This document shows, in pieces, positions 565 to 18,496 of a stretch of 22,449 bases of DNA. Each line of letters begins with the position of its first letter. Position 1 is the stretch's first letter. Source of the DNA: a virus. Where the stretch lies: IMG/VR virus record IMGVR_UViG_3300010300_000125, positions 1-22,449 of that record. One strand, 5' to 3'. The notes under the pieces are model-generated. The model was given only the letters and a program-made list of their open reading frames with translations, had not been told where the DNA came from and did not search any database. Position numbers and translations under genes: made by a program.

Positions 565-1013
565 TTAAGTCTAAACATCATCCATTTAACAAGGAGTGCT
601 TTGATGCAGTTGATGCTGAAAGCCGTAGGGCGAGTAAGCGTTACATTGCTTCAAAGGGCTACAAGGTAGAGGACCACTTAGATCAGTTTGCAGTTGACTT
701 AGTTGTAACTGCACCTGATGGACGAACAATCTATGTTGAGTGCGAAAGAAGGAACATTTGGTCAGGAGGCAGATTTCCTTACAATACCATTCACATACCC
801 TATCGAAAGAAAAAATTTTTAGAGTTAGATTTTCCTTGCGTGTATCACGCTTGGGATTCAAACTACGAGTATGCAGTTAGCATACATTCAGATGTCATAA
901 AGCAATCCCCTGTCGTAGAAGTTCCAAACAGAGCTATTGCAGCAGGAGAATATTTTTATGATGTACCAATAAATAAAACAAAAATAATAAAATTAAATGA
1001 ACAATGTGGATAA
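561..1013 (+). CDS. Hypothetical protein, possible PD-(D/E)XK-type nuclease fold
   Basis: A 150-aa protein with a core pattern like a restriction-endonuclease fold: a strand with Asp46 (AVDLVV), a short hairpin (APDGRT), then Glu60 and Glu62 in IYVECERR. This is an acidic-x-acidic/basic arrangement typical of divergent PD-(D/E)XK enzymes. After it comes a motif FPYNTIHIPYRKKKF that I recall from small marine-phage proteins of unknown role. It starts in an ATGA overlap with the upstream nuclease and its last codons overlap the methyltransferase start by 17 nt, so the three genes are probably translated together. The gene is real on length, coupling and codon use; the nuclease role is inference. 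A substrate-binding or regulatory protein with this fold cannot be excluded. Confidence 0.7.
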   Translation: MIKSKHHPFNKECFDAVDAESRRASKRYIASKGYKVEDHLDQFAVDLVVTAPDGRTIYVECERRNIWSGGRFPYNTIHIPYRKKKFLELDFPCVYHAWDSNYEYAVSIHSDVIKQSPVVEVPNRAIAAGEYFYDVPINKTKIIKLNEQCG

Positions 1014-2127
1014 TACCAAAAAACTTACACACCTTTCCCTCTGTACAGGTTATGAGGGAATCGGACTCGGACTCAAAAGAGTTCTGCCAAATATCAGAGA
1101 AGTCGCTTATGTTGAGATCGAAGCCTACGCTATCTTCAACTTGGCTAAGAAGATTGAACAAGGGTGGCTTAGTAAAGCACCTATTTACACGAACCTTAAA
1201 ACCTTCCCATACAGAAAGTTTCGAGGACAAGTGGATATTCTTTCAGGAGGCTTCCCCTGCCAACCCTTTTCTGTTGCAGGAAGTAAAAGAGCAACTGAAG
1301 ACCCTAGACACTTGTTCCCATACATTGCCGAAGGAATCAGAGAGTGCCAACCTAGAATTGTTTTCCTTGAAAATGTCGAAGGAATCATCACCCAACGAAC
1401 AGGAGACGGAGAACCAGTTCTCAAATATGTCCTCAGAAGATTGGAAGAATTGGGTTACAGAGCAACGGCAGGAATATTCTCAGCGAGTGAAGTCGGCTTG
1501 CCACACCAAAGAAAGCGTGTCTTCATCCTTGGCATATCCAACTCCGAGTGTAGCAGGATGCACGGAGGGGGGAGTAGCGAAGAATGTTTATTTGAGCAAC
1601 AACTCGTTCAAGGCAGAGAGGGAGAACGGAACACAGTACGGAGCAAAACTGAGAGATGCAATGGTACACCTGCAGAATTGGGCTACACCGAACACGATGG
1701 ACTATATGCCGAGCAGAAGCTACGAAGCAGCAGTTCGCCAAGCAACGACAACTCGCAAGGGCAGAAACCTACCGAGCAACTTGAGGGAGCAAGTCGATCC
1801 CATGATGGTTCAAGCATATTCAGATGCAAAGCAGTCGCAAGAGCAGACCAAGACCAATACGATTGGGAAGAACCAAGGGTTGTGGGGGACTCCGAAGGAA
1901 CAAGACTCAAGAGCTTGTTTGACAGACAGGAAGAAGTCGAACCTTGGGGAACAAGTACAAGGTATGCACGACCATTCTTTGACGAAGTGGAGGCTCAATC
2001 CAAATTGGGTGGAACAGTTGATGGGGCTACCTGTAGGGTGGACGCTCTCAGACTCCTCGGAAACGGAGTAGTGCCTGCGACTTGTTCCAAAGCTTTCGTT
2101 ACTTTATTTAACCGACTAAATGGCTAA
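997..2127 (+). CDS. dcm: DNA (cytosine-5)-methyltransferase (Dcm family)
   Basis: Transfers a methyl group from SAM to C5 of cytosine in DNA, probably to protect phage DNA or mark it during infection. C5-MTase motifs appear in order: motif I SAM-binding loop LCTGYEGIGLG (residues 15-25), motif IV GGFPCQPFS with catalytic Cys88, motif VI ENV (125-127), motif VIII HQRKRVFILG (170-179), a variable target-recognition stretch (about 181-340), and motif X LLGNGVVP (353-360). At 376 aa it is a normal length for phage family members. The first 17 nt overlap the upstream gene and the last 8 nt overlap the next start. The variable part carries recurring LGYTEHDG/VGDSEG-type motifs. The whole TRD and much of the core is also open in the +1 frame (1004-2071), which is unusual. 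Sequence specificity cannot be read from the protein. Confidence 0.95.
   Translation: MNNVDNTKKLTHLSLCTGYEGIGLGLKRVLPNIREVAYVEIEAYAIFNLAKKIEQGWLSKAPIYTNLKTFPYRKFRGQVDILSGGFPCQPFSVAGSKRATEDPRHLFPYIAEGIRECQPRIVFLENVEGIITQRTGDGEPVLKYVLRRLEELGYRATAGIFSASEVGLPHQRKRVFILGISNSECSRMHGGGSSEECLFEQQLVQGREGERNTVRSKTERCNGTPAELGYTEHDGLYAEQKLRSSSSPSNDNSQGQKPTEQLEGASRSHDGSSIFRCKAVARADQDQYDWEEPRVVGDSEGTRLKSLFDRQEEVEPWGTSTRYARPFFDEVEAQSKLGGTVDGATCRVDALRLLGNGVVPATCSKAFVTLFNRLNG
1004..2071 (+). CDS. Nested +1-frame ORF inside the methyltransferase gene (candidate overlapping gene)
   Basis: A 355-codon ORF without a stop lies wholly inside dcm, in the +1 frame. Its first third looks nondescript, but from about residue 117 it reads like protein. 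It has ELFSLKMSKESSP, then SSEDWKNWVTEQRQEYSQR (143-161), then three WxTPxxxD-like repeats: AYPTPSVAG (177-185), WATPNTMDYMPSRS (226-239) and WGTPKEQDS (294-302). A basic TTTRKGRNLPSNLREQV segment (248-264) follows, and it ends LNPNWVEQLMGLPVGWT (331-347). I recall proteins ending LNPxWVEWLMGFPxGWT annotated in other phages, but cannot verify this here. There is no good SD for ATG 1004, nor for internal ATGs at 1373 and 1427, so expression could be by internal initiation or +1 frameshift from dcm. Alternatively it is a long shadow maintained by dcm codon bias. Confidence 0.4.
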   Translation: MWIIPKNLHTFPSVQVMRESDSDSKEFCQISEKSLMLRSKPTLSSTWLRRLNKGGLVKHLFTRTLKPSHTESFEDKWIFFQEASPANPFLLQEVKEQLKTLDTCSHTLPKESESANLELFSLKMSKESSPNEQETENQFSNMSSEDWKNWVTEQRQEYSQRVKSACHTKESVSSSLAYPTPSVAGCTEGGVAKNVYLSNNSFKAERENGTQYGAKLRDAMVHLQNWATPNTMDYMPSRSYEAAVRQATTTRKGRNLPSNLREQVDPMMVQAYSDAKQSQEQTKTNTIGKNQGLWGTPKEQDSRACLTDRKKSNLGEQVQGMHDHSLTKWRLNPNWVEQLMGLPVGWTLSDSSETE

Positions 2128-17496: not shown

Positions 17497-17657
17497 TTTT
17501 TGAAAAAGGATGTAAATATTGATGCAAATTCTTTAAATATTTTTTTGATGAAATTGTCTTTAGGCAAAAACATCATAATAATTGATATTATACCAATATA
17601 AGCAAATGACATTGCTAATAAATCGTCTTTGTAGTTTGTGAATATATATTCTATCAT
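17493..17657 (-). CDS. 54-aa single-TM protein (holin-like candidate)
   Basis: A short ORF read from the reverse strand, ATG 17657 to TGA 17493. It begins MIEYIFTNYKDDLL, has one hydrophobic helix (LAMSFAYIGIISIIMMFLP, 14-32) and a basic amphipathic end, KDNFIKKIFKEFASIFTSFF (33-52) then KK. It overlaps both neighbours by 4 nt (ATGA on each side), strong evidence of translation within the operon. Size, TM and basic tail fit small phage membrane proteins such as pinholin-like or lysis accessory proteins. Function is inference. Confidence 0.7.
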   Translation of the reverse strand: MIEYIFTNYKDDLLAMSFAYIGIISIIMMFLPKDNFIKKIFKEFASIFTSFFKK

Positions 17658-18496
17658 GATACAGGGGATACTTGTCTTATGCTTGAATGTGGTTTAATGT
17701 CATCATTCATTGGCATAAAAGGTGTTTCAACTTTGGGAATACTAGACTTGACAGGTTCTGAATTTGTGTCAGACTGCGATGATGATTCGCCTTCTTGAGA
17801 TTCTGTCTTACCTTCAGTTTTTTGTTCTTGGGCTTGCTCTTGCTTACCTTTGTTATCTTCTTGTGAACCGTTATTTTTAGATGAATTTTCTCCTTTTGAT
17901 TCTTGCTCTGTTTTTTGTGACTCTTGTGATTTATCAGTATTGGAAGGCTGATCGCTTTGAGAAGATTTTTCGGAGGAAGAATTATGTGAAGAAGCAGAAG
18001 GTACAGGTTTGGAATCCTGTGGATCAGAGGATTGAGTGGAGGTCTGTAGTTGTTCGGAAGCCGACTCAACAAAAGCCTGTGCCTCGGAAACCTTTTCTAT
18101 AAGTACAACTTGACCCCAATCATTAAGCTCGTGGAAATCAATAAAAGTGTCGATGAACCCTGGAACTTCAAAACGCTCTTCCACAACATCGTTTGCGATA
18201 TTTGCCACGAAGACTTCTGTTTGATCTATCGCAACCGTTGTCTGAGCAACTGCGGCTGTACTTACAGCAACACTTCCAGCAGTACCTAGTTCGCTTACTT
18301 TTTGTATAACAGGTAAGTCTTTTATTTTTTCAATAAGCGACTTTTTAAGTTGCTTACTAGCCGACCTAGCCTGTTGTATAGCTTCTTGAGACTGTTCTTT
18401 AATCTCATCAGCACTTTCATAACTCTTTCCGTCCAAGACTTCGGACAAAGAATCACGCAGTTCTTTGAGTTTAATTTTGGCAGTCTTTTTATCCAT
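17654..18496 (-). CDS. 280-aa protein with Ser/Gln/Glu/Lys-rich disordered tail
   Basis: The N-terminal 60 residues form charged helices (KTAKIKLKELRDSLSEVLDG, 4-23), followed by a modestly hydrophobic stretch GTAGSVAVSTAAVAQTTVAI (71-90) that could associate with a membrane, and a short folded-looking part with FEVPGFIDTFIDFHELNDWG (109-128). From about residue 148 to 250 the protein is almost wholly S, Q, E, K, N, G and T, which is low complexity and surely disordered. It then ends with a conserved-looking PKVETPFMPMNDDIKPHSSI. It lies between the holin-like gene and the small TM gene, with an ATGA junction to the latter. A lysis accessory or virion linker is plausible. No family recognised. 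Confidence 0.75.
   Translation of the reverse strand: MDKKTAKIKLKELRDSLSEVLDGKSYESADEIKEQSQEAIQQARSASKQLKKSLIEKIKDLPVIQKVSELGTAGSVAVSTAAVAQTTVAIDQTEVFVANIANDVVEERFEVPGFIDTFIDFHELNDWGQVVLIEKVSEAQAFVESASEQLQTSTQSSDPQDSKPVPSASSHNSSSEKSSQSDQPSNTDKSQESQKTEQESKGENSSKNNGSQEDNKGKQEQAQEQKTEGKTESQEGESSSQSDTNSEPVKSSIPKVETPFMPMNDDIKPHSSIRQVSPVS

Follow-up and report, generated by a model that had tools for sequence, protein, structure and literature searches.

The DNA considered here is a viral sequence of 22,449 nucleotides (IMG/VR virus record IMGVR_UViG_3300010300_000125; this whole stretch is referred to as the window), in which a gene recognisable as a C5-methyltransferase, dcm, carries within it a second long open reading frame (ORF) in the +1 frame. 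The product of the dcm frame, termed alpha, comprises 376 aa when read from an ATG at 997 and 373 aa when read from a conserved GTG at 1006; the product of the nested ORF, termed beta, starts with an ATG, and the +1 frame (relative to dcm) is open from 1001 to 2071. The evidence assembled below argues that alpha and beta are probably the two polypeptides of a single DNA cytosine-5 methyltransferase. The features on which this argument draws are listed here with their support, AF2 denoting AlphaFold 2 and pLDDT its predicted local distance difference test score.

997-2127, plus strand: alpha, the C5-methyltransferase frame (dcm); PF00145 at E=5e-39, phrog_363, AF2 model with Z 21 to M.HhaI
1004-2071, plus strand: beta, the nested +1-frame ORF of 355 aa, with WxTP repeats and motif IX; phrog_1008 at E=2e-16, openness in relatives, substitution pattern
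1004-1008, plus strand: twin overlapping start codons ATGTG, comprising the ATG of beta and the GTG of alpha (1006); start conservation among 103 relatives
1011-1013, plus strand: TAA, the third-frame stop that ends the upstream gene (561-1013) within the start region; ORF list, 79/103 relatives
1009-1539, plus strand: motifs I-VIII, including PCQ and ENV, in the dcm frame, the +1 frame being open and constrained too; AF2 pLDDT mostly >90, codon-position differences
1532-1993, plus strand: variable region of WxTPxxxD cassettes with constraint in the +1 frame, dcm being filler except for the WEEPR segment; codon-position differences, alpha pLDDT <50 at residues 196-273, cassette shuffling
1834-1884, plus strand: conserved ADQDQYDWEEPRVV segment in the dcm frame (WPARPxxxQYEWEEPR in relatives); alignment conservation, codon-position differences
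1994-2044, plus strand: motif IX, LNPNWVEQLMGLPVGWT, in the +1 frame; invariant residues, PF00145 rescoring
2035-2124, plus strand: motif X, RVDALRLLGNGVVPATCSKAFVTLFNRLNG, in the dcm frame; AF2 pLDDT 92-97 near the C-terminus, invariant G355 N356 G357 V358

A sequence-only reading of this DNA had drawn attention to the long open +1 frame within dcm, and that frame proves to be real. Specifically, the longest +1 run is 356 codons, a length never reached in 5000 shuffles of the synonymous codons of dcm (mean 123, maximum 340), and codons redrawn from the phage's own usage give runs with a mean of 53 and a maximum of 164. The +2 frame of dcm is ordinary, with a longest run of 43 codons, and the motifs quoted by that reading for the nested frame are present. 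A first scan of IMG/VR, seeded with the nested protein, found the +1 frame open in every relative where it was readable; a later scan was seeded with the dcm-frame N-terminal half (N-half) only, which removes the seed bias. With the latter seed the +1 frame is open in 80/80 relatives, from upstream of motif I and mostly until approximately 18-26 codons short of the dcm end, and the +2 frame of the same relatives offers runs of 13-96 codons. When N-halves are made non-redundant, 37/37 have an open +1 frame versus 0.67 expected from synonymous shuffles. Two distant alphas, one from Paenibacillus phage Diva and one from coliphage N15, served as additional seeds, and in the untruncated loci so obtained the +1 frame is open for at least 80 codons beyond motif VIII in 31/32 and 67/69 cases, respectively. 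Stops in the +1 frame are not frequent among homologues, and the nested reading is not refuted. Taken together, the codon shuffles, the 80/80 openness and the 37 observed against 0.67 expected rule out chance opening, and on this comparative evidence the overlap of both frames is, as had been suggested, old and widely shared. As a separate observation, GC content is approximately 0.47 across 1001-2500 and 0.30-0.41 over the remainder of the window, a difference that could reflect the demands of two frames on one set of bases.

Substitution patterns distinguish the regions in which each frame is maintained. Differences were counted at dcm codon positions 1/2/3 in 47 greedy pairs of relatives and, because the relatives are not independent, the figures are effect sizes rather than exact probabilities: 370/213/701 in motifs I-VIII, 1372/881/780 in the WxTP region, 82/36/135 in the WEEPR segment, 164/82/64 in the stretch from that segment to motif IX, and 182/87/73 in motif IX itself. 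Third positions of +1-frame codons coincide with dcm position 1, and ownership therefore passes from dcm (motifs I-VIII) to +1 (WxTP), back to dcm (WEEPR), again to +1 (through motif IX) and finally to dcm (motif X). Selection acts in both frames, with ownership alternating by region, and the earlier claim that both frames are coding is borne out by this pattern together with the openness seen in relatives. A comparison of the window with one relative, L082 (L-numbers denote relatives throughout), yields 26 residue changes in alpha and 47 in beta over the N-half, versus 87 in alpha and 38 in beta over the C-terminal half (C-half). Within the N-half, the dcm third-position rate is 0.039 compared with 0.113 in flanking genes (97-100% protein identity class), and third-position change is lower than that of flanking genes in every identity class, amounting to approximately 1/3 to 3/4 at equal protein identity; by these measures the N-half is constrained in both frames. 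In the second half the roles are the reverse of those read earlier: the nested frame is constrained and dcm is mostly a passenger. Only YDWEEPRVV and RVDALRLLGNGVVPATCSKAF are conserved in that half of the dcm frame, and most of the C5-methyltransferase features once quoted there (ELGYTEHDG, VVGDSEGTR) are unconstrained filler. Across the variable region, the short WEEPR segment alone is constrained in alpha and the remainder is constrained in beta.

The conserved motifs of C5-methyltransferases are themselves divided between the two frames. Motifs I-VIII, with PCQ and ENV, are present in alpha (a feature of PF00145 membership), and an alignment of 64 alpha sequences contains motifs I-VIII and X with no motif IX, the GNGV of motif X (GNGVVPATCSKAF) being invariant across all 64. 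In three alpha-seeded samples the motif IX pattern occurs in the dcm frame of 0/175 untruncated loci and in the +1 frame of 67/74, 26/32 (Diva seed) and 64/69 (N15 seed), the +1-frame misses being mostly failures of the regular expression at loci where LNP-type motifs are still visible. The beta motif (LNPxWVExLMGLPxGWT) has invariant L331, N332, W335, E337, G341 and T347. With motif IX confined to the +1 frame at these loci, alpha by itself is classed as the large subunit of such an enzyme rather than as a complete C5-methyltransferase. Consistent with this division, a chain joined in silico from alpha I-VIII, the C-half of beta and alpha motif X raises the PF00145 score from 135 to 139.6 bits, with a match that reaches profile position 314 (motif X); when LNPNWVEQLMGLPVGWT is shuffled or deleted the score is 133.4-134.2 and the match ends at 265-266. 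The same test in relative L196 gives 144.5 bits for the joined chain versus 137.9-138.2 for the controls. These sequence comparisons show motif IX to lie in the predicted beta and motif X in alpha, and among the identities offered earlier for the nested product a methyltransferase partner appears to have been the right choice, motif IX being in beta and missing from alpha.

Structural and profile searches add to this picture. The AF2 model of alpha is of high confidence at approximately residues 10-181 (less so at 81-100) and over the C-terminal 20 residues, and falls below 50 at 196-273 and 297-355; its confident part has the fold of M.HhaI (Z 21). Beta has no significant match of its own in Pfam, NCBIfam or PADLOC. 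It matches phrog_1008 over residues 79-349 (E=2e-16), and the last 35 residues of alpha weakly match the next part of that profile (286-319; E=0.05 in one search and 1.8e-4 in another). Because beta and then the alpha C-terminus match successive parts of phrog_1008, the gene family seen by PHROGs crosses between frames. Similarly, the N15 +1 ORF matches phrog_31772 and phrog_1008, and the beta of Diva (DIVA_50, noted as 'g49 internal gene') matches phrog_1008 at E=1e-73. Both PHROGs are labelled 'DNA methyltransferase', and a beta that matches phrog_1008 and has no catalytic motif would be a partner subunit.

The start region is likewise conserved. ATGTGG stands at the beta start in 95/103 relatives, and the alpha GTG lies at +2 from the beta ATG in 96/103, being the sole alpha start in 66; in the window alpha has the extra ATG at 997 besides the GTG. 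A Shine-Dalgarno-like sequence precedes the starts in 43/103 relatives, compared with 10.6 in shuffles, and a third-frame stop falls within 20 nt of the start in 79/103.

The two-frame layout was read directly in phages N15, SEN5, Lc-Nu and R23.9 and in Paenibacillus and Bacteroides plasmids, and is also found in Xanthomonas, Burkholderia, Bordetella, Salmonella and cyanophage records, in phage BcepC6B and in Paenibacillus phages; by this survey a two-frame methyltransferase gene is the norm in several large phage families. True interruptions of the dcm frame occur in L018-20, L030/31, L036, L039, L049, L052, L054 and L063, and the apparent dcm stops of L024, L034, L037, L043, L044, L058 and L059, where beta extends beyond the end of alpha, were excluded. 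One clade (L018, L030, L036, L039, L049, L052 and L054) has an unbroken +1 frame alongside 7-18 dcm-frame stops (34 in L052) past motif VIII. In these members dcm opens again ahead of WPARP...WEEPR and motif X, with an in-frame ATG before WPARP in the members inspected; alpha in this clade seems to be split into two pieces, with beta intact. In L063, motif X has been relocated to the +1 frame, behind motif IX. Several individual variants were also noted. L062 and L064 have a single TAG at dcm codon 129, where tryptophan is expected (EPL*FFGENV, just before motif VI), and both frames are otherwise open; recoding, a dead enzyme or an error would each account for it. In L178, a Bacteroides finegoldii plasmid (1347-2463), the dcm frame ends at 190 aa and a +1 frame of 353 codons, containing LLPTP repeats and LNPLFVAEMMGFPPDWT, continues, the locus being annotated as fragments only. 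In L190, a Paenibacillus provirus, a single frame holds motifs I-VIII together with the WPTP/LNPDWAECLMGFPIGWTD part, an arrangement that looks like a fusion of alpha and beta by frameshift.

We judge it probable, at approximately 0.86, that the locus encodes one two-polypeptide DNA cytosine-5 methyltransferase, composed of alpha and beta and built like M.EcoHK31I. Alpha would supply the catalytic and S-adenosylmethionine-binding domain (motifs I-VIII, the WEEPR segment and motif X), and beta the parts that alpha lacks, namely motif IX and the variable WxTP region, which probably recognises the target; by analogy with the M.EcoHK31I subunits, beta may dock on alpha and complete the small domain. 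Both proteins are probably started from one mRNA at the overlapping ATG (beta) and GTG (alpha), and we propose that a shared site of ribosome arrival would therefore tie their amounts together. From the sequences we infer that beta is translated, that the complex forms and methylates DNA, and that the WxTP region sets the target; the WxTPxxxD cassettes of beta are shuffled between relatives, which would fit a role in target choice.

The small subunit of M.EcoHK31I (YGGCCR) is reportedly nested within the large one in another frame, a feature that the nesting of beta inside alpha found here would match; beta, however, spans nearly all of alpha, with 355 aa as against a small subunit said to have 176. 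Further differences are that here the beta start codon overlaps that of alpha, that the system is phage-borne, and that alpha is in two pieces in one clade. The large polypeptide of M.EcoHK31I contains motifs I-VIII and X and the small one only motif IX (PMC3404938), which is the same arrangement as in alpha and beta, the likeness being one of motif split and not of sequence comparison. M.AquI (CYCGRG) is also a split C5-methyltransferase with motifs divided over two subunits (PMC3404938), but AquI beta has IX and X, whereas X here remains in alpha; L063 is AquI-like by motif content. ShiLan resembles the present case in that a phage methylase gene hides a further protein out of frame, an HNH endonuclease (PMC11855218), and differs in that the endonuclease is a mobile insertion, whereas here the second frame holds part of the methyltransferase itself. 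The general kind of system is known; the literature examined yielded no account of its breadth, of the alternating frame ownership or of the twin start, and none of the two-frame layout in phages.

Several points weigh against a two-subunit enzyme of this type. Beta alone has no confident AF2 fold (mean pLDDT 55), which is expected of, and no proof for, a subunit that folds on its partner, and a beta profile searched against PDB sequences returned nothing credible and no solved structure. The homologues are not independent, and their counts therefore overstate significance. Finally, the predicted target recognition domain of M.EcoHK31I has been placed in the large subunit (PMC3404938), whereas the variable region here is constrained in beta.

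Other explanations of the same observations have been weighed. The functional motifs switch frames yet keep the normal C5-methyltransferase order, and PF00145 scores the joined virtual chain above alpha by itself (139.6 versus 135 bits), as would be expected if ribosomal frameshifting made a single chain, with a shift from 0 to +1 past motif VIII and a return ahead of motif X. Such a mechanism requires two shifts, however, and has no need for an open, constrained +1 frame over motifs I-VIII or for a conserved ATG, yet both exist; moreover, because the dcm frame is open throughout in intact members, alpha can be made without shifting. We consider frameshifting improbable, and the more limited suggestion of an alternative C-terminus made by frameshift finds no support, as the +1 frame has a conserved ATG of its own and remains open and under constraint from there to the end of the N-half. 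An equally slight chance is given to a reading in which beta was overprinted on dcm as a protein in its own right, serving in anti-restriction, as a regulator or as a partner of unknown function. Long overprinted genes are known in viruses, and the want of a significant Pfam, NCBIfam or PADLOC match would suit such a protein, but alpha is without motif IX in all 175 untruncated loci, beta has an IX-like motif directly before X, and X moves into beta in L063. The proposal of an anti-restriction protein is set aside on the presence of IX in beta and its absence from alpha, and on the L063 arrangement. In addition, because the dcm frame is unconstrained where beta is constrained, beta would not be a late addition over a complete dcm.

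Hardly credible is the view that base composition and dcm conservation have left the +1 frame open by accident. It can point to +1 frames that readily stay open in high-GC relatives and to PHROG models possibly built from over-predicted ORFs, but this genome is low-GC, and the codon shuffles, the 80/80 openness, the third-position constraint and the codon-position pattern all contradict it, as does the L018 clade, where the dcm frame has 7-34 stops and the +1 frame none.

Beyond this locus we advance, tentatively and at somewhat less than even odds, a broader picture in which a branch of phage C5-methyltransferases would be obligately heterodimeric, encoded in two frames with twin starts; the nested frame would be a swappable specificity subunit evolving by WxTP cassette shuffling, the catalytic frame would carry neutral filler, and one clade would make three polypeptides. 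The gene is usually annotated as a single methyltransferase, and the probable target-reading subunit is overlooked or labelled hypothetical. Should the enzyme require both frames, a recoded clone of the annotated gene by itself would be inactive, and specificity predicted from the dcm frame would be read from filler. What was an isolated oddity, known from a single bacterial enzyme described in 1995, would become a widespread layout, providing a test case for the origin and persistence of long overlapping genes and a source of naturally split methyltransferases.

Two further observations concern other ORFs in the window. The upstream 150-aa ORF (561-1013) contains a VDLVV...DGRTIYVECE stretch that resembles a PD-(D/E)xK nuclease, its Pfam match to REase_MTES_1575 being not significant (E=0.1), and it is present before the locus in only 6/153 relatives; a role as restriction partner is possible but unproven. 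A second nested ORF pair lies on the minus strand, with a Ser/Gln-rich ORF of 280 aa at 17654-18496 and one of 121 aa inside it in another frame at 17707-18072, and this pair may be only compositional.
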